This document shows, piece by piece, positions 1 to 22,661 of a stretch of 27,515 nucleotides of DNA; positions within the stretch are counted from its first letter, which is position 1, and each line of letters starts with the position of its first letter. Below the pieces are notes generated by a model that was not told where the DNA came from, did no database searches, and saw nothing but the letters and a program-made list of their open reading frames with translations. The DNA comes from Bryobacteraceae bacterium. Its GTDB lineage: Bacteria > Acidobacteriota > Terriglobia > Bryobacterales > Bryobacteraceae. Made by a program: the position numbers and the translations under genes. The DNA lies in contig JASHQT010000340.1 in NCBI GenBank assembly GCA_030039005.1, positions 1-27,515 of the forward strand, in the 5' to 3' direction.

Positions 1-351
1 AACGCGCATGATGGCGGGCGCGCCGTAAGCTTTGCATTGCTCGCCGGCAGCGATGTCCTTTTCAGGATCCCACGCGTTTCCAACGCGTCGGCCTTCATTA
101 TTTAAAGGAATACTGGCAAAATCGCCACGGATGGGCGTCACCATGCGCCAGCGCCAGTCCTCGGTGACGACGGAGACCCAATATCCTGTAAAGTCAACGG
201 GAGCAGAGGCTTGGGCGGACTTTTGCGCCTGTGCGCCGATGGGCGGGCCGATTCCGGGAGGGGGTGGGAGACCCTGTGCCTGGGCCGGCGACATTTTTAG
301 GGCCAGGGCGCCTGCAACGAAAGCGAGGAGTGTGAGGGATCGGCGTGTCAT
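1..351 (-). CDS. Secreted GYW-type protein of unknown function (3' part cut by window edge)
   Basis: The reading frame starts at ATG 351-349 and stays open to the window edge, giving 117 residues without a stop. The N-terminus (MTRRSLTLLAFVAGALALKMSPAQA) looks like a signal peptide, followed by a Pro/Gly-rich linker (GLPPPPGIGPPIGAQAQ). The segment GYWVSVVTEDWRWRM then follows, and later AAGEQCKAYGAPAIMRV. I recognise this as an uncharacterised exported type seen beside DUF6152 genes in Acidobacteriota and some Proteobacteria; this is memory, not a search. Its start overlaps the stop of the upstream MBL gene in an ATGA arrangement (348-351), so it is probably translationally coupled as the last visible member of the operon. 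The function is unknown; the Trp/Cys-rich mature part suggests an extracytoplasmic protein. Confidence 0.75.
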   Translation of the reverse strand, partial: MTRRSLTLLAFVAGALALKMSPAQAQGLPPPPGIGPPIGAQAQKSAQASAPVDFTGYWVSVVTEDWRWRMVTPIRGDFASIPLNNEGRRVGNAWDPEKDIAAGEQCKAYGAPAIMRV

Positions 352-1310
352 CTACTTGCGCTCGGGCCCTTTCCCTGGGAGAGGCTCTTGTAGACGGCAT
401 CGATGAACTGGTCCGTGGTCCAGAAGCCGGTGGTGGCGCCGTATTGGGTGTCGTAATCGAGGGTGGGTTTGGCGGCCTTAATTTGGTCCAGCGTCATGCC
501 TTGCTTGATCATGGCCTGGAAGCGGTCGCGAATGATGGTGAGCATGTTGCGGTATTCCACCACGTCGGCTTCGTCGCAGAGCCGGCCGTGACCGGGGATG
601 ACCATGGTGCCACCTTCCTGGTATTTGGCGGGGACGGTGATATCGATGATTTTGTTCAGCGCCTCGATTTCGCCCTGCACGCTGCCGCCGCGCGCGAGAT
701 CGATGATGGGATAGCTTCCGGGCGTGAAGACGTCGCCGGTCGAGAGCACGTCGGACTTACGGAAGAACACCAAGCTGTCGCCGTCGGTGTGGGCGTTGGG
801 GACGTGGTACACGATGATGGCTTCGCCGTTGAAATAGAAATCCTTGGTGGGCTGGAAATATTCGTCGTTGGGCCAATCGGCTTCATTGACCTTGGGTTCG
901 CCCGGCGCGGGCGAAGTCATGCGGTTTAAGACGTTCGACTGCGCGACGATGCGCGGCGGACCGATGGATTCGCGTGTCATGCCCAGCTTGGCCATTGCGG
1001 CGTTACCGCCGGTGTGGTCCGTGTGGACGTGGGTGTTGACGATCCAGCGAATGGGGCCATCGGATAGCGTGCGGATTTCGGCCATGGCCTTGGGCGCGAG
1101 TTCGGCGAATCCGGTGTCGACGAGCATGACGCCGTCCTTGCCGGTTTGGACAGTGATGTTGCCGCCATCGCCGAAGATGACGTGGACGCTGCCTTGGGCG
1201 GGGGCGAGGGTGAGTTGGGGATTGGCGGTTGGCGATTGGCAGAAACAGGCACTTGCGAGAAAGAAAATGCCACACAAGAGTGTGTGGCCTACAGTGCGGA
1301 AGGGGGACAT
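348..1310 (-). CDS. Exported MBL-fold metallohydrolase, stand-alone
   Basis: This is a 320-residue protein with an N-terminal signal peptide (MSPFRTVGHTLLCGIFFLASACFC). The metallo-beta-lactamase metal ligands are all present: HVHTDH at residues 94-99, His173 in AHTDGD, Asp193 in TGD and His241 in PGHGRLCDE. A dinuclear metal hydrolase acting outside the cytoplasm is therefore likely, with unknown substrate. The frame is open upstream to 1466, but ATG 1310 begins a good signal peptide and overlaps the stop of the upstream gene as TAATG, so I chose it. The protein is closely similar to the C-terminal halves of the fused proteins at 2787-4670 and 7546-9345. A palindrome (1269-1288) lies in the signal-peptide codons and a G-rich repeat (1196-1245) just after them. 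Other MBL roles, such as lactonase or glyoxalase, cannot be told apart from sequence alone. Confidence 0.88.
   Translation of the reverse strand: MSPFRTVGHTLLCGIFFLASACFCQSPTANPQLTLAPAQGSVHVIFGDGGNITVQTGKDGVMLVDTGFAELAPKAMAEIRTLSDGPIRWIVNTHVHTDHTGGNAAMAKLGMTRESIGPPRIVAQSNVLNRMTSPAPGEPKVNEADWPNDEYFQPTKDFYFNGEAIIVYHVPNAHTDGDSLVFFRKSDVLSTGDVFTPGSYPIIDLARGGSVQGEIEALNKIIDITVPAKYQEGGTMVIPGHGRLCDEADVVEYRNMLTIIRDRFQAMIKQGMTLDQIKAAKPTLDYDTQYGATTGFWTTDQFIDAVYKSLSQGKGPSASR
1196..1245. repeat. G-rich ATTGG-type low-complexity repeat in the MBL gene
   Basis: The plus strand has four G-runs at 1196-1198, 1200-1204, 1208-1210 and 1217-1220, followed by alternating GATTGGC/GGTTGGC units to about 1245. It lies just after the signal-peptide codons and encodes PTANPQLTLAPAQG. 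The G-runs are on the template strand of the gene. Similar ATTGGGG-rich stretches occur at 4865-4888 and 5516-5615. Confidence 0.6.
1269..1288. repeat. Perfect palindrome inside signal-peptide codons of the MBL gene
   Basis: Arms GCCACACA and TGTGTGGC flank a four-base AGAG centre, so the arms are fully complementary over 8 bp. It occupies codons 8-14 of the MBL protein (GHTLLCG). Read on the minus strand, the core is CACAC-TCTT-GTGTG, close to the CACAC-TC-GTGTG core of the repeats at 2202 and 2283. Confidence 0.8.
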
Positions 1311-2272
1311 TATTTTGAGTTCACGGTGCAGTCGAACAGAGAGGTGCATTTGCAGTAGCGGGTGCAGTGATCGGGCGGATGGTATTCGTTCGCGATCTTC
1401 TTCCGATATTCCGGATACAATGTCTCGGCGCCGCCGCGCGTAGCTTCGTAGGGGAGGCCGTACCAATCGGCGAACTCATGCAGGAACGGATTCTTGCCGG
1501 GCAAATGATTGGGAACCGTGCCCTCCGGGCGCGGCACTTCCGGAGCGTACTCGCATCCGAAGATCCCGATGTTCTGGCCGGGATCGATGAACCAGTTGTC
1601 GCTGCGGACCAAAGGCTCGGTGAGGTACACCGGATCGTCGACCACGGTGATGATGGTCAGGTAGTCGCCGTGGCGCACCCAATGCTCGGTGAAAACGGCT
1701 TTGTCGCTGCGCGGTATGCCGTTGCGGCGCATGTAATTGGTCTTCAGGTGCGTGGTGGTAATGGTGAGCATGTTGCCATCCCAGACGCCAGTGGAAAAGC
1801 CCTGCCAGGTGTGCTCGGCCCAGGCGGGAGGATGCGGACGGCCGTCCATCCAAACGGTGCGCTCGCTGTCCCAAGCGAGCATGTGGGTGTGGAAGGCGAC
1901 CAGCTTTTGCGAAGTCTGGTCGATTTCGCGCCAGATTCGCAGATTGCCAAGGCCACGCATGGAATAATCGGCGCCATGGGGGCGGCACTGGTATTCGGGA
2001 ACAACCGAGATGCGATCGGCATCGTAGGTATCGCCGGCCATGCGGGCGGCCGCGTTGATGGGAAGCTCGGTATAGTCGCCGAGTTCGGGGCCCGGAAGGC
2101 GCTCGGGCCCGTCTTCGTGGTAGAGGGGCGACCATTCGCCAGTGAAATCCACCTGGGCGAACGCGGGGAGGGTAAGGAGGGCCGTGAAGAGAAGAAGAAG
2201 AGCGTTCACACGAGTGTGAACGCCACAGAGAAAGCTCCGCGCGATCCTACGGCGAGGTAGGGGATGGGTCAT
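1310..2272 (-). CDS. Exported GEW-domain protein, stand-alone partner of the MBL hydrolase
   Basis: This is a 320-residue protein. The N-terminus has an arginine-rich n-region, a repeat-encoded segment (FLCGVHTRVN), then a hydrophobic core ending LPAFAQ, consistent with a signal peptide of about 40 residues. The mature part carries the marks shared with the N-terminal halves of both fused proteins: GEWSPLYHED (45-54), ERLPGPEL, WMDGRPHPPA (141-150), HTWQGFSTG, TTTHLK, DPVYLTEPL and VPNHLPGKNPF. I do not recognise a catalytic motif. The tail is Cys-rich (Cys303, 307, 309, 315), unlike the fused copies, where this position runs into the linker. The start is uncertain: ATG 2272 has no clear Shine-Dalgarno sequence, and GTG 2209 inside the repeat would give a shorter signal peptide (MNALLLLFTALLTLPAFAQ). 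The stop overlaps the MBL start by one base. Confidence 0.8.
   Translation of the reverse strand: MTHPLPRRRIARSFLCGVHTRVNALLLLFTALLTLPAFAQVDFTGEWSPLYHEDGPERLPGPELGDYTELPINAAARMAGDTYDADRISVVPEYQCRPHGADYSMRGLGNLRIWREIDQTSQKLVAFHTHMLAWDSERTVWMDGRPHPPAWAEHTWQGFSTGVWDGNMLTITTTHLKTNYMRRNGIPRSDKAVFTEHWVRHGDYLTIITVVDDPVYLTEPLVRSDNWFIDPGQNIGIFGCEYAPEVPRPEGTVPNHLPGKNPFLHEFADWYGLPYEATRGGAETLYPEYRKKIANEYHPPDHCTRYCKCTSLFDCTVNSK
2200..2229. repeat. 30-bp palindromic repeat, copy A (within signal-peptide codons)
   Basis: A 30-bp sequence with 10-bp arms GCGTTCACAC / GTGTGAACGC around GA (2202-2223), followed by CACAGA. It is identical to copy B at 2281-2310. It lies in frame inside the signal-peptide region of the GEW-domain gene and encodes CGVHTRVNA. 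Confidence 0.9.
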
Positions 2273-2280
2273 GGCGAGCG

Positions 2281-2310
2281 GAGCGTTCACACGAGTGTGA
2301 ACGCCACAGA
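2281..2310. repeat. 30-bp palindromic repeat, copy B (intergenic)
   Basis: Identical to copy A over 30 bp, 81 bp away and in the same orientation. It sits between the DUF6152 stop (2319) and the GEW-domain start (2272). Transcribed, its 10-bp arms could form a hairpin between the two genes. No T-run follows, so it is not a canonical intrinsic terminator. Confidence 0.9.
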
Positions 2311-2318
2311 AACGACAG

Positions 2319-2711
2319 TTACTGGACGACGCCCTTCCAACTCCAGCCGTCGGAGGGACGCGTGATGCTCTGCATGCGGATGCGATGGTCGTCCGGATTG
2401 CGGCCCGGATTGCCCTTAATGACGACCTCATCGCCCGGCTTGAGCGTTTCGCGCGTAACGCCATCGCGGCTCAATTGGCCACCGGCGCCCCATTCGACTG
2501 CCCAGGTCTGCATCACGCCCTTGTCATCCGGGGCTTCGACGTGCACGAAAGAATGGGGATTGCGGTACAGGAACTGCACAAGCTTGCCTTGAATCGTGAT
2601 GGTCTGATCCTCGAAATAGGTGGCCGCAAACGAGTGATGCGCAAAGACATTCACTTGCGTGCTCATCATGGTAGCCGCAGCGACAACCAAGAACAACAGT
2701 GTTCGTTTCAT
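2319..2711 (-). CDS. DUF6152 family exported protein
   Basis: This is a 130-residue protein. The signal peptide MKRTLLFLVVAAATMMSTQVNVFA ends immediately before HHSFAATYFED, the typical start of mature DUF6152 proteins. ITIQGKLVQFLYRNPHSFVHVEA, WAVEWGAGGQL and KPGDEVVIKGNPGRNPDDHRIRM follow in the family order. The fold is probably a small OB-like beta barrel with a conserved N-terminal His pair that could bind metal; that is inference. ATG 2711 was chosen over the open frame to 2777 because AAGGA lies just upstream on the minus strand and the signal peptide starts here. It is transcribed after the fused GEW-MBL gene (75 bp downstream of its stop) and before the GEW-domain gene. The function is unknown; the family is often found beside exported proteins like those here. 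Confidence 0.88.
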   Translation of the reverse strand: MKRTLLFLVVAAATMMSTQVNVFAHHSFAATYFEDQTITIQGKLVQFLYRNPHSFVHVEAPDDKGVMQTWAVEWGAGGQLSRDGVTRETLKPGDEVVIKGNPGRNPDDHRIRMQSITRPSDGWSWKGVVQ

Positions 2712-2786
2712 TTTGTTTCCTTTGGGGTTTTGTTCCCGACTAAACTTTATAATATACCGTAACTTGCAAAGCTGCATGCAGGCCGA

Positions 2787-4670
2787 TTACTTGCCTCCCA
2801 GACTCTTATATACGGCCGCCACGAACTCATTGGTCGTATTGAAGCCTTTATCCGCGCCGTACCGGGCATCGTAATCCATGGTGGGCCGAGCCGCCTGAAT
2901 CTGTTCCAGCGTCATGCCCTTCTTGATATCCGCCTGGATGCGATCACGAATGATAGTTACCATATCACGATATTCGATCAATTCCCAACGGTCACACAAG
3001 CGGCCGTGGCCGGGGATGATGTAGGTGCCGCCCTCCTCGTCGTGTTTGGAGATGGCCATGTCGAGCAGGTGGTTCAGAGCGTTCAGTTCTCCCTGGATGC
3101 TGCCGCCGCGCGCGATATCGATGAATGGATAGCCGGTAGTGACGAAGATGTCGCCGGTGGCGATGACGTCAGAGTGGCGAAAGTACACCACGCTATCGCC
3201 GTCGGTGTGGGCGGCCTTCTCATGCGTGATTTCGATCGACTCGCCGTTGAACCATAGCGTCTTGCGATCGCCCAGGAACGTGTCGGTGGGCCAGGACTCG
3301 GCCGGCGCGGCGGGCTGATTGCCATCGGCCATGCTCATGCGATCGAGCACGGCCTGGTGCGCGATGATGGCAGCGCCTTTGGAAGCGTCCGAGATGTCGC
3401 CGGTGACATTGGCGCCAGTGATGGTGACGCCCGCCGCGCGCAGCTTTAGGTTCCCGCCGGTGTGGTCGGGATGTACGTGCGTGTTGATGATGTATTGCAG
3501 CGGCTTGCCGGGTGCGAGCGTATGGATGGCGTCGATGACTTTGTCCGCGGTTGCGGCGAGACCCGTGTCCACGATCAGAACCCCCATGTCGCCGACTTGC
3601 ACGGCGATGTTTCCACCGGCGCCGACCAGCATGTACACATTGTCCTGCACCGGAAGAACGTGGACTTCGCCATCGGCGGGATTGGGATTCTGCGCCATGT
3701 TCTTGGTGGGCATGGGCACGATCTCGTCCTTGGCGAAGACGTTGCTGGGCGTAGGTGGCGGGTTCTCGATGACTTTTTTGAATTCCGGATACATCGTCTC
3801 CGGACCGCCCAGAGCCGCGATCAACGGGAGGTGGTACATGTGCGCGTATTCGTCAATGAATGGGTTCTGGCCAGGCAGGTAGTTGGGCACCGCGCCCTTC
3901 GGCCGGCCTTCCACTTCTTCCACTTCTTCGCACGGGTAGAGCCAGTTGCCACCGGCATTGGTGTTGAAGGTGAAGTCCTGGGTTTTGATGAGCGGCTCGG
4001 TGAGATAGACCGGATCGGTGACGATGCTGACGTGGGTCAAGTGATCGCCATGGCGGATGAAGTGCTCTACCAGCGTGGCCTGGTCACTTTCCGGAAGCCC
4101 GTCGCGCCGCACCCAGCCCTGCTTGATGTGCGTGGTGTAGACGGTGAGGACGTTGCCTTCCCATTTGCCGGTGGAGAAGCCCATCCAGGTGTGCGCGGCC
4201 CAGGCGGGAGGATGCGGGCGTCCGTCCATCCAAATGGTGCGCGTCTGCTCATACGTGCTGATGTAGTTTTTGATCGCGATGATTTTCTGGGATTGCGGGT
4301 CCTTTTCGTCCCAGAAGCGCATTTGCAGCGGGCCGCGATAGATGTAGGGCGCGACGTGCACCTGGCACTGATGTTCGGGCATGGTGAGCCGCGAGGAGTT
4401 CCAGCTTTCGGCCCACAGGCGCGAGCCTTCGGTGATGGGAAGGCCCGAGTAATTGACCAGCTCCGGACCGGGAATGCGCTCGAGAAAATCTTCGTGCAGG
4501 AGGGGATTCCAAGTGCCGGACAGGTCCACGCCCACGTCAGGAACGAATTGTCCCACCACGGCCTGGCCATAGGCGCTGAGGCCTACGAGGGCTGCCAGTG
4601 GCAGCAGGACTTTTGAACGAAATGCGGAACAGGTCATGGAACTAAACGGGGTTCGGCAGAAACTGCCCAT
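2787..4670 (-). CDS. Exported two-domain protein: GEW domain fused to MBL metallohydrolase (copy 1)
   Basis: This is a 627-residue protein. Residues 1-35 form a signal peptide (hydrophobic VLLPLAALVGLSAYG). Residues about 50-300 match the stand-alone GEW-domain protein at 1310-2272 (GTWNPLLHED, IWMDGRPHPPA, TTHIKQGW, DPVYLTEPL, VPNYLPGQNPF). A Pro-rich linker spans about 303-335. Residues about 336-627 match the MBL protein at 348-1310 with full ligands: HVHPDH 398-403, His488, Asp507, His555. The frame runs open to 4790, but ATG 4670 follows a GGAGAG ribosome site with 4-base spacing and begins a signal peptide; ATG 4637 lacks such a site. It is the first gene of the minus-strand run and is divergent from the gene at 4836. 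The substrate is unknown. Confidence 0.88.
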   Translation of the reverse strand: MGSFCRTPFSSMTCSAFRSKVLLPLAALVGLSAYGQAVVGQFVPDVGVDLSGTWNPLLHEDFLERIPGPELVNYSGLPITEGSRLWAESWNSSRLTMPEHQCQVHVAPYIYRGPLQMRFWDEKDPQSQKIIAIKNYISTYEQTRTIWMDGRPHPPAWAAHTWMGFSTGKWEGNVLTVYTTHIKQGWVRRDGLPESDQATLVEHFIRHGDHLTHVSIVTDPVYLTEPLIKTQDFTFNTNAGGNWLYPCEEVEEVEGRPKGAVPNYLPGQNPFIDEYAHMYHLPLIAALGGPETMYPEFKKVIENPPPTPSNVFAKDEIVPMPTKNMAQNPNPADGEVHVLPVQDNVYMLVGAGGNIAVQVGDMGVLIVDTGLAATADKVIDAIHTLAPGKPLQYIINTHVHPDHTGGNLKLRAAGVTITGANVTGDISDASKGAAIIAHQAVLDRMSMADGNQPAAPAESWPTDTFLGDRKTLWFNGESIEITHEKAAHTDGDSVVYFRHSDVIATGDIFVTTGYPFIDIARGGSIQGELNALNHLLDMAISKHDEEGGTYIIPGHGRLCDRWELIEYRDMVTIIRDRIQADIKKGMTLEQIQAARPTMDYDARYGADKGFNTTNEFVAAVYKSLGGK

Positions 4671-4835
4671 CTCACTCTCCTCAAAAACGTAAAACGACGT
4701 ACATCGGGGCTTTGGACGCGTGTATGCAATAGACTTGGCGTTTGGAGCGCGGTGCAAGTTACGCGCGCGCCGGATGCGATCCATCACCAAAAGTAATATT
4801 AACCCTTTTGCTATGCTACGGGGCTGGAGGTGGGG
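4671..4835. promoter_or_regulatory. Divergent intergenic region
   Basis: This 165-bp spacer separates the minus-strand run from the plus-strand cluster and should hold promoters for both. I see ribosome sites at both ends (GGAGAG read on the minus strand at 4675-4680; GGAGG at 4826-4830). A TATGCT at 4812-4817 is a possible plus-strand -10 but has no convincing -35 partner. TTGCAC read on the minus strand near 4750 is a weak -35 candidate. No operator-like palindrome stood out. Confidence 0.4.
4826..4830 (+). promoter_or_regulatory. Ribosome binding site deciding the start at 4836
   Basis: GGAGG sits five bases before ATG 4836. An in-frame GTG at 4830 overlaps this site and is therefore unlikely to be the start. 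Confidence 0.75.
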
Positions 4836-5516
4836 ATGAACGCGCTTGTGTTACGACTCGTGCTGGGGTTGGGGATTGGGGCCTGGGGACTTGGCACACT
4901 CGTGGTTGCTCAGGAGCCTGCGGGGTTACCGAAGGATATCGATTCGAAATCGTATTCTCGGCTTCCGGTGCTGAAGCGGAGCGATATGAAGACCGACGAG
5001 GACAAGCGCATCTACGACATGCTGGCGGGAGACGAAGGCAAGACGGTGACGCCGACTGGTCCGGCAGCGATCTCGCTCTACAGTCCCAAGGTGGCCGAAG
5101 CCATCCAAATGCTGAATCAATACCTGCGCTTTCAGGGCTTGCTGAAGCCGCGCGATTACGAAGTGGCGATTCTGGTGGCGGCGCGGGAGTTCGATCAACA
5201 GTACGAATGGAGCGGACATGAAACGGCGGCGCGGCGCGCCGGGGTGCCGGATGCGGTGATCGAGGCGATCAAGCACAACCAGCCGGCGAAGGGATTCTCC
5301 GATCGCGACACGCTGATCGTGACTTTCGCGCGCGATTCGTTCCATGGGCATAGGATCGGTCCGGAGCTGTATGCGAAAAGCGTCGAGACGTTCGGTACGC
5401 AAGGGACGCTGGAGCTGGCGACCATTATCGGGGACTACGCGATGGCGGCGGTGATGCTGAACGCCGAGGACCAGCACGTGCCGCCGGACCGGCCGTCGAC
5501 ATTGCCGGTGAAGTAG
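4836..5516 (+). CDS. Exported carboxymuconolactone decarboxylase (CMD)-like protein
   Basis: This is a 226-residue protein. The N-terminus MNALVLRLVLGLGIGAWGLGTLVVAQ looks like a signal peptide. The CMD-type core is in the C-terminal half: VAILVAAREFDQQYEWSGHETAARRAGVPDAVIEAI, followed by a helical segment (LIVTFARDSF, LATIIGDYAMAAVML). It has the Glu-Trp-x-x-His pattern of CMD relatives but no CxxC, so it is not an AhpD-type thiol peroxidase reductase. Known CMD enzymes decarboxylate gamma-carboxymuconolactone in the cytoplasm; an exported relative in this setting probably does something else. The start was chosen by the GGAGG site. The signal-peptide codons hold a four-tract G-quadruplex motif (4865-4888) and a degenerate piece of the palindrome family (4895-4904). 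Confidence 0.82.
   Translation: MNALVLRLVLGLGIGAWGLGTLVVAQEPAGLPKDIDSKSYSRLPVLKRSDMKTDEDKRIYDMLAGDEGKTVTPTGPAAISLYSPKVAEAIQMLNQYLRFQGLLKPRDYEVAILVAAREFDQQYEWSGHETAARRAGVPDAVIEAIKHNQPAKGFSDRDTLIVTFARDSFHGHRIGPELYAKSVETFGTQGTLELATIIGDYAMAAVMLNAEDQHVPPDRPSTLPVK
4865..4888 (+). other. G-quadruplex motif in coding strand just after a start codon
   Basis: Four GGGG tracts at 4865-4868, 4871-4874, 4878-4881 and 4885-4888 are separated by loops TT, ATT and CCT. This meets the strict four-tract, short-loop pattern. It is on the coding strand, so the mRNA carries it 30 bases after the A of ATG 4836. Folding is predicted, not shown. Confidence 0.7.
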
Positions 5517-5615
5517 CTCGCCTGCGGCTCGCGCGATTGGCGCGGGCTCGCCTGGGGCTCACGCGATTGGAGAAAGGCCTCGCATTCGCTCGGCGGGATT
5601 GGGGACCTGGCACGC
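5516..5615. repeat. Two-unit 30-bp tandem repeat followed by ATTGGGG-type sequence
   Basis: Two 30-bp units (5516-5545 and 5546-5575) share GCTCGCCTG-GGCTC-CGCGATTGG with a few substitutions. After them comes GGGATTGGGGACCTGGCACGC (about 5598-5618), which resembles the G-rich stretch at 4871-4899. The first unit begins at the last base of the CMD stop codon. The spacer to 5663 holds no other recognisable element. Confidence 0.75.
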
Positions 5616-5663
5616 TGGACGCGAGCCGGAGTCTTCGAGTGACCCCGGCGATAATGAGGTTAG

Positions 5664-6866
5664 ATGCGACGCTCGGGACACGCTGATCTTCCGCTGCACG
5701 GTGGACGGGTGCCGGGGTGGCTGGCCGAGCGCATGACGCGGCTGGGAACGGCGATCAGCGAAAGCATCTTGCTGCACTATGGACCTTCGGAATTGCTTTC
5801 GCGGTTGAGCGATCCGTTCTGGTTCCAGGCGCTCGGTTCGGTGATGGGCATGGACTGGCATTCGTCCGGCATTACTACCTCCGTGATCGGGGCGCTCAAG
5901 CGCGGGCTGAATCCGCGTGCGCAGGAGCTCGGAATTTTCATTTGTGGAGGGCGAGGGAGACACTCGCGCAGGACGCCCGATGAGCTGCGGGCGGTGGCGG
6001 AGACAACCGGCCTGGATGGCGAAGCGCTGGCGCGCACCAGCCGATTGACGGCGCGCATCGACAACAACGCCATCGCTGACGGGTTTCAGATCTACCTGCA
6101 CGCCTTCGTGCTGACGGCGGGCGGCGAATGGGCGGTGATCCAGCAAGGGCTGAACGATGACGTGGGGTTCGCGCGACGTTATCACTGGCATTCGGCGACG
6201 GTCCGCGATTTCACGTGCTCACCGCACACGGCGATCGAAGGCGCGCCGCAGGGCGAAATCATGAACCTGGTGGATGCAGCCGCGCATCCGGCGCAGAGCG
6301 CGCTGGTCGAGATCAGCCATCAGCCGCCTGAGATCACGATTCGGGATCTGCAACTCGCGATGCCTGAGCATCACGATGTGCGTGCGGAAAACGTCGATCT
6401 GAAGCGGCTGGGCGCGGTGTTGGCAGTGGCGTACGAACGCGACCTGCATGATTTCGCGGAGTTGCTGTTGGTAGAGAAGCTGGGACCGCGCACGCTGCAG
6501 TCGCTCGCGCTGATCGCCGAAGTGGTCCACGGGACGCCGGTGCGTTTTTCGGATCCGGCGCGCTTTTCGTTCGCGCACGGCGGCAAGGATGGGCATCCGT
6601 TCCCTGTACCCCTCAAAACATACGACGCTTCGTTGAATGTGCTGCGCTCGGCGCTCGATTCGGCGAAGGCCGGCGATCGCGAGAAGCTGGACGGCATGCG
6701 GCGGCTGGACCAGTTCGTGCGAGCGGTAGGGGAACGGCGGCAGCCCGAAGCCGATTTCGATGCCGTCATCCGTCATGAACGCGCCATTTCGCGAGAACTG
6801 GGCGGGCGGACAGTGTTCGATGACAAGCGGGTTGCGAAGTCGCGGCAGCTCGACCTCTTCTTCTAA
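5664..6866 (+). CDS. DUF763 domain-containing protein
   Basis: This is a 400-residue cytoplasmic protein without signal peptide or membrane segments. It is recognisable as DUF763 from its N-terminus: RRSGHADLPLHGGRVPGWL, LSDPFWFQALGSVMGMDWHSSGITTSV and GALKRGLNP. The conserved block around residues 45-80 and the later HWHSATVRDFTCSPHTAI and NLVDAAA segments also fit. The length is near that of archaeal and bacterial homologues. The family has no established biochemical function that I know of. ATG 5664 is preceded by TGAGGT at about 5655-5660. Forty-five bases downstream is a DUF892 gene, which may be co-transcribed. The charged C-terminal stretch (RHERAISRELGG...KSRQLDLFF) ends QLDLFF, which resembles a beta-clamp-binding peptide; that resemblance is only suggestive. 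Confidence 0.9.
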   Translation: MRRSGHADLPLHGGRVPGWLAERMTRLGTAISESILLHYGPSELLSRLSDPFWFQALGSVMGMDWHSSGITTSVIGALKRGLNPRAQELGIFICGGRGRHSRRTPDELRAVAETTGLDGEALARTSRLTARIDNNAIADGFQIYLHAFVLTAGGEWAVIQQGLNDDVGFARRYHWHSATVRDFTCSPHTAIEGAPQGEIMNLVDAAAHPAQSALVEISHQPPEITIRDLQLAMPEHHDVRAENVDLKRLGAVLAVAYERDLHDFAELLLVEKLGPRTLQSLALIAEVVHGTPVRFSDPARFSFAHGGKDGHPFPVPLKTYDASLNVLRSALDSAKAGDREKLDGMRRLDQFVRAVGERRQPEADFDAVIRHERAISRELGGRTVFDDKRVAKSRQLDLFF

Positions 6867-6911
6867 GCGAAACCTCCCCCGCGACTCCGAGTCCAACCGC
6901 AAGGAGCAATC

Positions 6912-7454
6912 ATGGAACTTCTGCAAGAACTGTTGACCGAAGAATTAAGAGATCTGCTGAGCGCCGAGAATCAGCTCGTCAAGGCGCTGCCGAAGATGGC
7001 CAAAGCGGCGAAGGATGACGAGTTGAAGTCGGCGTTTCAGGAGCATCTGGAACAAACCAAGGAACATGTGGAACGCCTGAAGCGGGTGTTCGAGATGCTG
7101 GACGCAAAGCCGCGCGCGAAAACGTGCAAAGGCATGGCCGGATTGGTGGAAGAAGGCCAGGAAGTGATCACGGAAGGTAAGCAGAAGGAAGAAGCGGCGG
7201 CGGATTTGGCGCTGATCGGCGCGGCGCAACGCGTGGAGCATTATGAGATCGCAGCCTATGGCACCGCGCGCGCCATCGCCGAGCAGATGGAGCGGGAGGA
7301 TATCGTGAGGCTTCTCAGCCAGACGTTGGATGAGGAAGAAAAGGCCGATCAACTGCTAACCCAATGCGCGGAGCCGCTGCTGGAACAGGCCGCCCGGGGC
7401 GCCGAGGAGGAGGAAGGGGAAGAGCAAGAAGAGATGGAAGAAGAGGAAGTCTAG
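6912..7454 (+). CDS. DUF892/YciE-YciF-like ferritin-like protein
   Basis: This is a 180-residue, strongly helical and acidic protein. The N-terminal pattern LLTEELRDLLSAENQLVKALPKMAKAA, then FQEHLEQTKEHVERLKRVFE, KCKGM-like CKGMAGLVEEG, AAQRVEHYEIAAYGTARA and LSQTLDEEEKADQLLT are the YciE/YciF (DUF892) four-helix layout. The Glu/His residues needed for a di-iron site (for example Glu62, His63 and the EHYE motif) are present. Known relatives are stress-induced and dimeric, with unclear chemistry. The C-terminus ends in an unusual run of glutamates (about residues 164-179). AAGGAG at about 6900-6905 sets the start at 6912. Confidence 0.88.
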   Translation: MELLQELLTEELRDLLSAENQLVKALPKMAKAAKDDELKSAFQEHLEQTKEHVERLKRVFEMLDAKPRAKTCKGMAGLVEEGQEVITEGKQKEEAAADLALIGAAQRVEHYEIAAYGTARAIAEQMEREDIVRLLSQTLDEEEKADQLLTQCAEPLLEQAARGAEEEEGEEQEEMEEEEV

Positions 7455-7545
7455 AGTTTGAATACATAGCCGACAGCTGCGTGGCCTGGGGCCGCGCGTG
7501 TCGCACCTTCGTCCCATATCATCGCGCTGCATGCAGGATTGTTAT

Positions 7546-9345
7546 ATGCTCAACTGCATGTTGCACAGAATTGCGGGCGCCACGTTGCTGCTCGCGACCT
7601 CATTGATCCCGGTCCACGCCGAAGATTTGTTGGTGGGCGAGTGGAGTCCGCTGCATCACGAGGATTACAACGAGCGCATCCCCGGACCGGATTTGGGCGA
7701 TTTCGCGGGTCTTCCGATCGACGATTCCGCGCGCGCTTTCGCCGAGGCCTGGGACGCATCGCGCCTCACGCTGCCCGAACATCAGTGCCGCGTGCACGTT
7801 TCGCCGTACATTTATCACGGTCCGCTGCATTTGAGGATCTGGGAGGAAAAAGATCCGTACACGCAGCGCGTGATCGCGATTAAGAATTACATCAGCACCT
7901 ACGAGCAGACGCGAACCATCTGGATGGACGGGCGCCCGCATCCACCGGCTTACGCGCCGCATACGTTCATGGGATTTTCGACCGGCAAGTGGGACGGCGA
8001 CGTCCTGACGGTTTACACCACACACATCAAGCAGGGCTGGGCACGGCGGAACGGGTTGCCGGAAAGCGACGAAGCCTCGATGACCGAGCACTTCCTGCGG
8101 CACGGGAACATCATGACGCACATGACCATCCTGTACGATCCCGTGTATCTGGCGCAGCCGCTGGTGCGCACCGACGATTTCCAGCTCGACGAAAAAGAGC
8201 TGGGCGGCTGGTTGTGGCCGTGCGAAGCGGTGGAAGAGATTTTGTCGCGGCCCAAAGGCGCGGTGCCGAATTATTTGCCGGGAAAAAATCCGTTCCTGTT
8301 CGAATATGCCGACAAATATCACTTGCCGCACGCGGCGGTGATGGGCGGGCCGGAGACGATGTATCCGGAATATCGGAAGGTGCTGGCAACCGCGAAGATC
8401 GATTCCGAGGCGGCTGCGCCGCGTCCGCCCGCGAAATCGCCGGGGCCAGAAAATGGCGACGTGCATATTCTTCCGGTGCAAGGGAACGTGTACATGCTGG
8501 TGGGCGCAGGCGGCAACATCACGGTGCAAGTGGGCGAGCAGGGTGTGCTGCTGGTGGATACGGGGCTGGCGCAGTTCTCCGACAAAGTGATCGCCGCGGT
8601 GCGAACGCTGTCCGATAAGCCGATCCACTACATCATCAACACGCACGTGCATCCGGACCACGTGGGAGGGAACGAGGCGCTGGCGAAAATCGGCGGTGGC
8701 TCGGCGCGCGAAGTGACGCTGGTCAACACGCCCGGGGAAACAGCGGCGTTGAGCGTCCAAATCATCGCGCATCAAAATGTCTTTGACCGGATGAGCGCGA
8801 CGGGCACAAAGTATCCGGAAACGGCGTGGCCCACCGATACCTATCTGGGCGGGGAGAAAGAAGTCTATTTCAATGGCGAGGCGGTGCAGATGTTCCACAT
8901 GCCCTCGGCGCACACCGACGGCGACACTATCGCGTTCTTCCGCCGCTCGGACGTGGTGAGCGCCGGCGACGTTTTCGTCACCAACGGCTACCCGATCATC
9001 GATCTCAAGAACGGAGGCAGTTTGCAAGGCGAGATCGACGCGCTGAACAAATTGCTGGACCTGGCGATTCCGGCCCATCACGAGGAAGGCGGCACATATA
9101 TTATTCCGGGGCACGGACGCTTGTGCGACGAGTTTGACGTGCTGGAATATCGCGACATGGTAACCATCGTGCGGGACCGGCTCCAAGCGATGATCCAGAA
9201 AGGCATGACGCTCGATCAGATCCAGGCTTCGCGGCCGACGATCGATTGGGACCCACGCTACAATACGCCCGGCGCGTTCTGGACCGCCGAACAGTTTGTC
9301 GAGGCGGCGTACAAGAGCCTGACGCAAACAAAACAGACAAACTAA
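7546..9345 (+). CDS. Exported two-domain protein: GEW domain fused to MBL metallohydrolase (copy 2)
   Basis: This is a 599-residue protein. The signal peptide is MLNCMLHRIAGATLLLATSLIPVHA. The GEW domain covers residues about 30-285 (GEWSPLHHED 31-40, IWMDGRPHPPA 125-135, TTHIKQGW, DPVYLAQPL, VPNYLPGKNPF). A Pro/Ala linker lies at about 286-303. The MBL domain covers 304-599 with full ligands: HVHPDH 367-372, His456 in AHTDGD, Asp475 and His523. The frame is open from 7498; ATG 7546 has AGGA (7535-7538) at good spacing and starts the signal peptide. It shares long identical stretches with copy 1 but lies on the opposite strand, so the two form a diverged inverted duplication around the CMD-DUF763-DUF892 genes. 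An SDR gene starts five bases after its stop. Confidence 0.88.
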   Translation: MLNCMLHRIAGATLLLATSLIPVHAEDLLVGEWSPLHHEDYNERIPGPDLGDFAGLPIDDSARAFAEAWDASRLTLPEHQCRVHVSPYIYHGPLHLRIWEEKDPYTQRVIAIKNYISTYEQTRTIWMDGRPHPPAYAPHTFMGFSTGKWDGDVLTVYTTHIKQGWARRNGLPESDEASMTEHFLRHGNIMTHMTILYDPVYLAQPLVRTDDFQLDEKELGGWLWPCEAVEEILSRPKGAVPNYLPGKNPFLFEYADKYHLPHAAVMGGPETMYPEYRKVLATAKIDSEAAAPRPPAKSPGPENGDVHILPVQGNVYMLVGAGGNITVQVGEQGVLLVDTGLAQFSDKVIAAVRTLSDKPIHYIINTHVHPDHVGGNEALAKIGGGSAREVTLVNTPGETAALSVQIIAHQNVFDRMSATGTKYPETAWPTDTYLGGEKEVYFNGEAVQMFHMPSAHTDGDTIAFFRRSDVVSAGDVFVTNGYPIIDLKNGGSLQGEIDALNKLLDLAIPAHHEEGGTYIIPGHGRLCDEFDVLEYRDMVTIVRDRLQAMIQKGMTLDQIQASRPTIDWDPRYNTPGAFWTAEQFVEAAYKSLTQTKQTN

Positions 9346-19740: not shown

Positions 19741-21087
19741 TCAGCCGCCCAGGAAGCCCAGATTTTGCGAGCCGAAGTTCGCGAGATTCGGAAACACGGT
19801 GGCGAGCGCGCTTGCGGGAATGCCGAACCAGGAGCAAAGCGTAGCACCGTATTGATCCACCGACGTAGTGGGAATCCATCGGCCGCGCGTATCGGTGTCG
19901 TTGGGCCCGCCCAATTCGAAGGTGGGAAATTGGCCGTAGATCTGGCCGCCTTGCACCGCGCCGCCGAGGACCAGATGATGGCTGCCCCAGGCATGATCGC
20001 TGCCATCGGTCGTAGTGGGCTGGAAGGTGCGGCTGAAATCGGATTCGGTGAACGTGGTGACGTTCTCGGCGACCCCGAGTTCCTGGGTGGCGGCATAGAA
20101 AGCGGCCAAGGCCTGGCTCAGTTGCGGATAAAGATTGTTGTGGGTTTCCAGTTCGCCGGCGTGCGTATCGAAGCCGCCGAGGGAGCAGAAAAAGATTTGC
20201 CGGCTCATCCCCAGGTAGGACTGTACCTGGATAATTTCGGCCACCTGCTGGAGTTGGGATCCCAGGCTGGTGGAGGGAAATTGCGTTTTGAGCGGCGAGG
20301 ACTTGGCCAGCGCGGCTTCGAGCGCAGCCGCATCGGCGATACTGTTAGCCGTCGTATTGTTGGCCGCCTGCACGAGGGACAGGCCATTATCGGATGTGAG
20401 CAGCGTAGTCAGCGCGTTCAAGCGAGCCTGCGAGGGCACGGAACCGTTGAAGCCTTTGAGCGTCAGCGATTCTCCGGGCGCGATGGCCACCGGCTGCGTG
20501 GTCACTCCTTGTCCTTCAAGTGCGTTGCCGGCCACCGAAAGGAACGCCGGGAAGTTTCCCGAATTGATTTTCTGCGAGGCCAGATAATCGGCCGCGCGGC
20601 CGGCCCATCCGGTGGGGCTGCTGCCCTGCGCGACGGAGGTCTGCCATTGCAACTGCTGGTCGGCATGCGAAAACAGATTCAGCGGAATCGGAGCCTGAGC
20701 GGCCTGATATTGTGCCTGTGTCAGCGGTTGGACCAGCGATCCTGTATTCGCCACCACCGCCAGCTCCTTGCTCGAGAACATGCTGGCAACTTCCACGAGC
20801 TTGCCATGAAACGCAAACGGGGCGTTCGAAACGCTGTAGACGGTGGGCGTCAGCTCGCTCGCTGAGAGCGCGAGGCTGCCGCGGATCGACGTGTAAGCTT
20901 GAAAGCTGGCGTCATCCAGCGGGATCACGGTGTTGTTCGAATCGTTACCGCCGAACAGGAATACGCAGACGAGCGCGCGATAGTTGGCGCTACTCTGCGC
21001 CATGGCCGGAAGCAGACCGAAAGGGCGCAGCGCCAGCGTTCCCACGGTAGCCGCGCTTGCCCGAATGAAACCTCGCCGTGACAGCAT
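19741..21087 (-). CDS. DUF1501 domain exported protein (Tat signal)
   Basis: This is a 448-residue protein. The N-terminus MLSRRGFIRASAATVGTLALRPFGLLPAMAQ has the twin-arginine signature S-R-R-G-F-I at residues 3-8, so it is predicted to be exported folded by Tat. The mature part has the DUF1501 marks LVCVFLFGGNDSNNTVIPLD, SHADQQLQWQT, FFCSLGGFDTHAGE and TFTESDFSRTFQPTTTDGSDHAWGSHHLVLGGAV. The DUF1501 fold resembles the sulfatase/alkaline-phosphatase group, but no activity is established. The ribosome site GGAG overlaps the upstream stop TAG. It lies 11 bp downstream of the DUF1800 gene, its usual partner. It converges on the GDE gene with only 20 bp between them and no visible terminator. 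Confidence 0.93.
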   Translation of the reverse strand: MLSRRGFIRASAATVGTLALRPFGLLPAMAQSSANYRALVCVFLFGGNDSNNTVIPLDDASFQAYTSIRGSLALSASELTPTVYSVSNAPFAFHGKLVEVASMFSSKELAVVANTGSLVQPLTQAQYQAAQAPIPLNLFSHADQQLQWQTSVAQGSSPTGWAGRAADYLASQKINSGNFPAFLSVAGNALEGQGVTTQPVAIAPGESLTLKGFNGSVPSQARLNALTTLLTSDNGLSLVQAANNTTANSIADAAALEAALAKSSPLKTQFPSTSLGSQLQQVAEIIQVQSYLGMSRQIFFCSLGGFDTHAGELETHNNLYPQLSQALAAFYAATQELGVAENVTTFTESDFSRTFQPTTTDGSDHAWGSHHLVLGGAVQGGQIYGQFPTFELGGPNDTDTRGRWIPTTSVDQYGATLCSWFGIPASALATVFPNLANFGSQNLGFLGG

Positions 21088-21098
21088 TTCCAGTTCTC

Positions 21099-22661
21099 CT
21101 AATGAATGACTTGATACTCGTTCGACGTCAAGACCGTGTACAGCGCGACTTGCGCTTTCGCCGTGGGCGTGGACGCGGCATCGATGGCCGCGGTGGCCGC
21201 TTGTTGGAGAGCGGTGGACATCGCGCCGTGCAGAAAGATCGAGCCGATGTAGTTGAGCAGCGAGCTCGCGTTGCCCGCCTGCTGGACAAAGGGCGTGAGA
21301 TCCACCGTGGTTCCCTTGTCAAGTGTGCCGTACAGGGTTGCGGATACGATGTCGTCGCGACTAGCCGCGGTCTGCGTCGTGTAGATCTGAAATTCCGGTC
21401 CTAGGAATCCGCCGGGAATGCGGTAGAGCGGAGAAAAATAGCTGAACACGCTCGGCGCGTTGAACAGATCCTCGCTCAACAAAGATGTGTCGTAATAAAT
21501 CGCGCTATTCGCTGTCAACGTCGCGTTCAGCCCGCGCAGCAAATTGGGCAGGAAGAGAACCGGCTCCCGCAGATGGCCGAATGTGGAACTCGCCCAGGCA
21601 GGAGCGTCGTCGCCGGCGCGCGCCTCCGGATCGGTGAGGATCGCGGTAATTACTGCCTGAAGATTGCCGATGGTGCCCGTCCCATCGTTCTCGAACACGC
21701 TGGCCACTCGCGCGACGTACTGCGGGCTGGGATTGCTGGTCACCAGGTGCTGGATCAACTGCATGGCAACGAACGGGGCCATGGACGGCTGCGCCATCAG
21801 GGCATCGAGCAGCGAATCCAGATCCTGTTCCGCGGTCTGGCCGGCGGGGATGGTGACGCCGCCAAAGATGGCCTTCGCCGTGGTGTCGTGCTCAGCTTCC
21901 ACTGCGTACATCTGGCCGAAGAAATATTGGGGATTATTGATCTTCGCGGTCACACCGGGCGCGGTGGGATAGGTCCAACCCGTGAGCACCTTGGCCATGT
22001 TAGTCACCACCGCCTGATCGTACGTCGGAACCGGCTTGCCGTTTTGGTCGAGCACCGGCGTGCCGTTCGGATTCAATTCCGTCAGCCCCAGCGTGAATAA
22101 CTGCATCACCTCGCGGGCGTAATTCTCGTTCGCCGACGTGTCTTTCGCCGGATTGGCCTTGTTGTTGTTCGCCATGTTCAGGTAGCGGCCCATGGCGGGA
22201 CTCAGGGTGAGGTCGTGAATCAGAGTGCGGTAGTTTCCAAAAGCGTCGTCGCGGAAAATTCTCCAATACGGCGGAAACGCGTAGGCAATGGGAAGGCCGG
22301 TGAACGAGACCACCCAAATCTGGCTGAGCGCGAACGCCACGCGCTGCCGCAGTTGATCCTGTCCGGTGACCGTGTTCTCAAAAAACGCGGCTTGCACGGG
22401 ATGGATGTCGCGGTTGGGCTGGCCGGAAGAGGCATCGATCGGCTGATCGGGAATATTGGATGTGTTCAGCGCGAATTGGGCGGCCAGCCAACTGTTGATC
22501 CCCATCTGTTGGAGCTGCGCGATGGATGCCGGCGTGGGGCCCCAGGTCGCCTGATCGAGGAAACGCGCGGCCGCACTCGCTGTCATCTGTGTCGTGCCTT
22601 GCGCGCAGATGGGGACCGTTGCGCATGCGGCCAGCAGACAAGCCCTCCACGAGATTCGCAT
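21099..22661 (-). CDS. DUF1800 domain exported protein
   Basis: This is a 520-residue protein with a signal peptide (MRISWRACLLAACATVPICAQ). DUF1800 marks run through the chain: AARFLDQATWGPTPASIAQLQQMGINSWLAAQF, HPVQAAFFENTVTGQDQLRQRVAFALSQIWVVS, DLTLSPAMGRYLNMANN, NENYAREVMQLFTLGL, MAKVLTGWTY, FVAMQLIQHLVTSNPSP and a C-terminal LTSNEYQVIH. Function is unknown; the family is widespread in Acidobacteriota and Planctomycetota and nearly always sits with DUF1501. An excellent ribosome site, GGAGGTAA (22666-22673), sets the start. It is probably the first gene of a two-gene transcript. Confidence 0.94.
   Translation of the reverse strand: MRISWRACLLAACATVPICAQGTTQMTASAAARFLDQATWGPTPASIAQLQQMGINSWLAAQFALNTSNIPDQPIDASSGQPNRDIHPVQAAFFENTVTGQDQLRQRVAFALSQIWVVSFTGLPIAYAFPPYWRIFRDDAFGNYRTLIHDLTLSPAMGRYLNMANNNKANPAKDTSANENYAREVMQLFTLGLTELNPNGTPVLDQNGKPVPTYDQAVVTNMAKVLTGWTYPTAPGVTAKINNPQYFFGQMYAVEAEHDTTAKAIFGGVTIPAGQTAEQDLDSLLDALMAQPSMAPFVAMQLIQHLVTSNPSPQYVARVASVFENDGTGTIGNLQAVITAILTDPEARAGDDAPAWASSTFGHLREPVLFLPNLLRGLNATLTANSAIYYDTSLLSEDLFNAPSVFSYFSPLYRIPGGFLGPEFQIYTTQTAASRDDIVSATLYGTLDKGTTVDLTPFVQQAGNASSLLNYIGSIFLHGAMSTALQQAATAAIDAASTPTAKAQVALYTVLTSNEYQVIH

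Follow-up and report, generated by a model that had tools for sequence, protein, structure and literature searches.

A 27,515-nucleotide stretch from the genome of a Bryobacteraceae bacterium, probably a soil dweller (GenBank assembly GCA_030039005.1, contig JASHQT010000340.1; hereafter the window) carries the same two domains three times: once as neighbouring genes, GEW1 and MBL1, and twice as the fused proteins F2 and F3. One domain has the metallo-beta-lactamase (MBL) fold of a well-known hydrolase superfamily; the other, which we call GEW, is unannotated. We tentatively propose that the two quite plausibly form one exported (periplasmic) working unit, in which a ligand-binding barrel is docked to an MBL hydrolase. 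This reading draws on the homology of the split and fused copies, on the linkage of the two domains across genomes and on a confident predicted arrangement of the fused protein. The relevant genes of the window are:

1-351, minus strand: GYW, a second, putative GEW-superfamily barrel protein, truncated at the window edge with 117 amino acids (aa) visible (E 1.7e-10 to GEW1)
348-1310, minus strand: MBL1, an MBL-fold hydrolase with a signal-like N-terminus and metal ligands HHDHHDH (Pfam PF00753, 68.5 bits)
1310-2272, minus strand: GEW1, a predicted barrel protein with a signal-like N-terminus and a Cys-rich C-terminal tail (without Pfam or NCBIfam match; AlphaFold2 model)
2319-2711, minus strand: a DUF6152 protein, recurrent neighbour of GEW-superfamily barrels (PF19649, 86 bits, cut-off 27)
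2787-4670, minus strand: F2, a GEW-MBL fusion with ligands HHDHHDH (Pfam, BLASTP and ligand reading)
7546-9345, plus strand: F3, a GEW-MBL fusion with ligands HHDHHDH (Pfam, BLASTP, ligand reading and AlphaFold2 model)

Split and fused copies share two homologous domains

The open reading frames (ORFs) of the window reproduced the coordinates of the original prediction, made from the DNA letters alone, as well as its one-base overlap of GEW1 and MBL1 (TAATG); the start codon of GYW in turn overlaps the MBL1 stop (ATGA). The claim that the split products correspond to the two halves of the fusions, in the same order, was borne out at 46-54% identity. By BLASTP, GEW1 is 51% identical to the N-terminal half of F3 and 46-49% to that of F2, MBL1 is 54% and 49% identical to the respective C-terminal halves, and F2 and F3 are 61% identical across 579 columns. 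Local alignment scores for these five comparisons ranged from 737 to 1936, against a best score of 72 among 200 shuffles of any pair. The shared motifs listed earlier (WMDGRPHPP, TTH-K, DPVYL--PL, HVH-DH and PGHGRLCD) were all found in window proteins, and the GYW and DUF6152 genes had been overlooked. Read by eye, without a signal-peptide predictor, the N-termini of the window GEW and MBL proteins look signal-peptide-like, which would place them outside the cytoplasm.

All three MBLs pass the Pfam MBL superfamily model (MBL1 as listed, F2 56.4 and F3 65.2 bits; cut-off 22.7). At E up to 1, GEW matched neither a Pfam nor an NCBIfam model, consistent with the earlier remark that a domain of this type has no described function, and at the same threshold the PDB yielded no sequence relative. 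Its relatives are numerous: scoring 8,000 candidates gave at least 7,399 relatives as long as GEW, and scoring 7,995 gave at least 7,610 as long as a fusion. Where their sources name them they are 'hypothetical protein', and the fusions 'cyclase', 'glyoxylase-like' hydrolase or 'MBL fold metallo-hydrolase'. A family of thousands, without a Pfam model or a PDB sequence relative, is genetically tied to a familiar enzyme fold. For each search we used the best 120 of thousands of relatives, so proportions among these database relatives do not equal population frequencies. Loci in species genomes were retrieved by searching for GEW peptide patterns. Of 170 confirmed places we kept the best 80, whose record titles assign them to Acidobacteriota and Proteobacteria, the latter mainly Gammaproteobacteria and including SAR86.

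GYW is a divergent relative of GEW1 (36% identity over 70 aa by BLASTP). A profile comparison of GEW with 34 GYW sequences from other loci gave E 2.9e-40, and one with 8 sequences of a 'DLSGxW' family gave E 1.9e-24. Judged by these profiles, GEW, GYW and 'DLSGxW' proteins are a single superfamily.

GEW is predicted to be a barrel docked on the MBL

The AlphaFold2 model of GEW1 (predicted local distance difference test score, pLDDT, 87), for which GEW1 was aligned with 59 locus sequences and 33 of the 120 database relatives, contains one strand, short helices and then nine or ten strands, an order that we take to be close to that of fatty-acid-binding proteins. Its best structural neighbours are SAHS, UnaG, FABP, CRBP and NanoLuc-type barrels, at structural E values that are not significant. 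GEW is best described as a predicted fatty-acid-binding-protein-like barrel with no significant PDB match. Its predicted order of strand, short helices and strands is similar to that of calycin-like proteins (fatty-acid- and retinol-binding proteins, UnaG, NanoLuc); it differs from them in its C-terminal extension, and the PDB search at E up to 1 found no sequence relation to them.

The original prediction had proposed modelling the fused protein. The model of F3, from an alignment of 2 window sequences, 12 locus sequences and 108 of 120 database fusions, has a confident two-domain arrangement (pLDDT 88; predicted template modelling score, pTM, 0.90). Among the best 50 Foldseek matches of the fusion, its MBL half lies nearest to 8d2z, alkylsulfatases, BcII and chlorothalonil dehalogenase.

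These models suggest how the proposed unit might operate. GEW, a predicted beta-barrel of the same type as fatty-acid-binding proteins and with several conserved polar residues, would bind a ligand and be docked in a fixed manner on the MBL-fold hydrolase, either within a single chain or as the product of a neighbouring gene; in the split form a second barrel, GYW, would usually join the pair. The barrel may capture a small, probably hydrophobic molecule and pass it to a dinuclear metal site, which would hydrolyse an ester, lactone, sulfate or similar bond. Since all metal ligands are kept in the three window MBLs, capture, hand-over to the dinuclear site and hydrolysis are their likely action. 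The earlier suggestion that GEW presents substrate to the MBL site or forms its lid is one option within this scheme.

GEW and MBL are linked, and their fused and split forms have an old history

In ten carrier genomes we classified 85 GEW domains (part of 120 GEW rows, the weaker ones, mostly fragments and GYW, being omitted) by their position relative to 82 of 148 MBL rows. An MBL lies downstream as a split gene in 36, is fused in 19 and lies upstream, at up to 1.4 kb, in 14, leaving 16 without a linked MBL. Counting fusions and neighbours together, 69 of the 85 are paired with an MBL of this family. In the other direction, no GEW was assigned to 4 of the 69 strongest MBLs, and two of these four (G094:C60 and G005:C2) have a GEW fragment alongside. 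The 91 strong GEW domains of the 80 loci and the window give a similar count: the MBL is fused in 15, directly downstream in 57, upstream in 8 and not assigned in 11, some of which sit at contig ends; under a looser rule the figures are 15, 58, 8 and 10. In locus L001 a partial MBL lies at a contig end.

The order of domains was invariably the same in the fusions seen. Trees of GEW and MBL are correlated (Mantel r 0.61; best of 999 permutations 0.21), which is expected without contact because the genes are linked. Quick trees were built from 93 rows, containing 16 of the 108 database fusions, after the removal, from these trees and from the residue counts below, of three rows that contig ends had cut short or caused to be misassigned. 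Parsimony requires 7-8 changes between fused and split states, and well-supported branches force 2-3 of these. The earlier claim that the two domains act together is therefore sustained in part: linkage, repeated change between forms and the fusion model speak for it, and the 16 lone GEW domains weigh against it. GEW domains without a linked MBL had been named beforehand as evidence that would refute joint action; they occur in that minority, and in one genome, G004 (below), the barrel superfamily far outnumbers the MBLs.

The split pair had been taken as a plain two-gene version of the fusion, a description that we revise. GEW1 and MBL1 group within a clade of 24 split rows with a Shimodaira-Hasegawa-like approximate likelihood ratio test (SH-aLRT) support of 100 in both quick trees, so the split and fused copies of the window are old paralogues; recent fission of a fusion was considered for the split pair and rejected on this ground. 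The split form has further features of its own. Within 1.2 kb, GYW accompanies 52 of 56 split pairs but just 1 of 10 fusions (Fisher 1.8e-7, counting cases in which GYW is present or the contig is long enough), and the split form is a cassette with this second homologous barrel, sometimes including DUF6152. A functional tie of GYW to the split form was also tried, but shared ancestry would explain the difference too: the sign test on the 2 independent pairs with support gave p 1. GEW1 ends in a tail with C-x-R-Y-C-x-C followed by one more Cys; by pattern, such a tail occurs in 16 of the 24 rows in the GEW1 clade, in 20 of the 91 GEW domains overall and in none of the 15 fusions.

Two loci (L066:10016-12093 and L067:6276-8360) hold GEW-DUF6152-GYW cassettes that neither contain nor adjoin an MBL of this family. 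Near the start of GEW1 itself lies a near-palindrome, GCGTTCACACGAGTGTGAACGC, in two exact copies at 2202-2223 and 2283-2304, either side of the start codon; none of 92 loci searched carries it. The true GEW1 start is uncertain because one copy falls within the signal-peptide region.

Metal ligands change while chosen GEW residues stay constant

The MBL metal ligands (HxHxDH plus distal H, D and H, together HHDHHDH) are complete in all three window MBLs. The wider sample is mixed: among 186 readable MBLs, 86 are complete, 64 are altered in the HxH pair only and 36 are otherwise altered. These comprise 80 GEW-MBL pairs and 108 fused database relatives minus 2 gapped sequences, with one MBL of locus L076 counted twice. 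NTSADADH is a typical HxH-altered form. A 93-row quick tree with the motifs masked needs 16 changes between complete and altered, of which well-supported branches force at least 9; for the 'only HxH changed' state the figures are 8 and at least 6. The tree is unrooted; judging from the superfamily at large, the changes would be losses from a complete set. In 107 fused database relatives the HxH pair is complete in 41, and each of the five later ligands is retained in 99-106, indicating that the usual event is a specific swap rather than decay. Altered MBLs show no visible decay, with an MBL/GEW distance ratio of 1.20 against 0.93.

Ten GEW residues were chosen from 43 listed: C96, D143, R145, H175, K177, R183, S189, D213, C240 and E245. 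They are kept in 84 of 84 proteins with an intact MBL, in 98-100 of 99-100 with an altered MBL and in 11 of 11 without an assigned MBL. Part of this conservation stems from how the loci were selected, because GEW peptide patterns served to find them. The database fusions, unlike the loci, were found with the whole protein as query, and in the 107 fused relatives alone the residues are kept in 41 of 41 with an intact MBL and 64-66 of 65-66 with an altered one. The barrel would then be the constant part across the family, with the first two MBL metal ligands changed many times. This ligand pattern favours the barrel as constant core; the barrel may serve the hydrolase, or the hydrolase the barrel.

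Alternative readings and known systems

Because the MBL HxH pair is repeatedly changed while GEW residues stay constant, GEW as the constant core fits as well as a lid or substrate presenter. In one alternative the barrel would be the principal functional site, by binding or by catalysis of its own, with the MBL chiefly a scaffold or regulator that is catalytic in some members only. We consider this rather unlikely, though deserving of weight: fewer than half of the sampled MBLs are complete, at least 9 state changes are forced, the GEW polar residues are constant in those same proteins, and GEW occurs without an MBL (G004 has 122 barrel matches against 18 for the MBL). The Integrator proteins INTS11 and INTS9, a catalytic/pseudo-enzyme MBL pair, show that an MBL fold can stay part of a complex once its metal ligands are lost, although they are unrelated RNA endonucleases without a barrel. 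Against a barrel-led complex stand the 86 fully intact MBLs, all three window copies among them, the only slightly raised divergence of altered MBLs and the retention of the later ligands in nearly all fused database relatives. Moreover, 64 of the 100 altered MBLs keep D, H, H, D and H, which points to a modified, possibly one-metal site rather than decay; subclass B2 beta-lactamases offer a comparison for a one-metal site. Were the barrel the working core, many genes named 'MBL fold metallo-hydrolase' or 'cyclase' would hold their key function in the unannotated half, and the HxH-altered members, about half of the sample, may not be ordinary dinuclear zinc hydrolases.

That the two are independent periplasmic proteins of one pathway, linked for co-expression and sometimes fused by chance without working contact, would agree with the lone GEW domains and with the variable gene order (MBL-GYW-GEW in L019, L025 and L030). 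We think this improbable, given the constant order in fusions, the fused/split changes on the tree and the confident joint model. It is very hard to credit that the MBLs are antibiotic-degrading beta-lactamases with GEW as an accessory. They show weak similarity to class B models, and BcII is among the structural neighbours; however, bla_class_B_core (NF012229) gives 47.6-52.9 bits, far under its cut-off of 100, the subclass B1, B2 and B3 models also fall under cut-off (among the best 25 families per protein), an Asp occupies the position where B1/B2 enzymes carry Cys (class B numbering), and a genome may hold up to 15 GEW copies, mostly with an MBL.

The docked barrel and hydrolase that we favour also differ from the known MBLs nearest to them. 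In NCBIfam, each of the three MBL halves scores highest with TIGR04559, a model of SoxH-related or quinoprotein-relay MBLs (83-93 bits). The window proteins, however, are barrel-fused or barrel-linked, the match is confined to the MBL half, and scores of at most 93.2 bits lie far under the cut-offs of 280 (TIGR04559) and 300 (TIGR04558). The alkylsulfatases SdsA1 and Pisa1, chlorothalonil dehalogenase and the Burkholderia cenocepacia MBL 8d2z share the MBL fold and are among the best 50 Foldseek matches, but are 15-21% identical to the fusion; we know of no GEW-like partner for any of them.

A wider repertoire of barrels and DUF6152

GEW is patchily distributed. Among genomes sampled from the phylum of carrier genome G001 it is present in 3 of 149 (one being G001), and in 4 of 61 from the same family (two being the known carriers G001 and G003), with 1 to 15 copies where present. 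Since broad surveys of this kind scored few candidates in each genome, they may underestimate prevalence and copy number. DUF6152, a separate family that adjoins GEW-superfamily barrels in the window and elsewhere, was found in all ten carrier genomes tested, at 4 to 98 copies, in 10 of 119 genomes of the G001 phylum, G001 included, and in 1 of 114 genomes of the class of G004, namely G004. A literature search for DUF6152 or PF19649 by those names found no paper.

G004, a 3.7-Mb genome whose locus L030 is titled Gammaproteobacteria, has 98 DUF6152 and 122 GEW-superfamily barrel matches (stretches L081-L092), and 18 MBL matches at E 1e-15. As many as 77 of the 98 DUF6152 matches lie within 700 bases of a barrel on the same strand, against about 6 expected by chance; 24 are apparently in one frame with a barrel, judged by equal frame length, and 13 are far from any barrel. 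These counts suggest that GEW-MBL is one branch of a larger barrel-DUF6152 repertoire, an amplification that points to unexplained envelope biology. Somewhat speculatively, barrels and DUF6152 could be a two-part periplasmic module, amplified to dozens or about 100 copies in some Acidobacteriota and Gammaproteobacteria, perhaps each copy with its own ligand. MBL-like enzymes would have been plugged in beside or onto the barrel, and their chemistry might afterwards be altered or lost, so that complexes led by the barrel remain; the window would represent one branch.

Neighbouring genes, taken as ORFs from a simple longest-ORF script rather than a gene finder, were considered as a clue to substrate and gave no indication of substrate or reaction. 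Pfam families in 206 ORFs flanking the loci (taken from 242 of 296 selected, GYW-like or spurious-looking frames being omitted) include no dominant one, with OMP_b-brl_4 in 6, tannase in 4 and pyrroloquinoline quinone (PQQ) propellers in 4, among the first 25 families of each scan. In 97 of the 98 ORFs between the DUF6152 modules of G004 there are 3 PQQ propellers and 3 matches to NCBIfam acido_non_PQQ. These are raw counts, and we claim no pathway from them. Three of the 97 match the 'acido-empty-quinoprotein group A' model (TIGR04528, NCBIfam), a possible tie to periplasmic oxidation.

Other features of the window

One further gene lies between the two fusions:

4836-5516, plus strand: a carboxymuconolactone-decarboxylase-like (CMD) protein (PF02627, 26.3 bits, cut-off 23)

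A Bryobacterales genome retains it as well, at the syntenic locus L076, where the order is fusion, CMD, fusion, DUF6152, GEW. Further along, genes for DUF1501 (PF07394) and DUF1800 (PF08811) proteins adjoin on the minus strand at 19741-22661.

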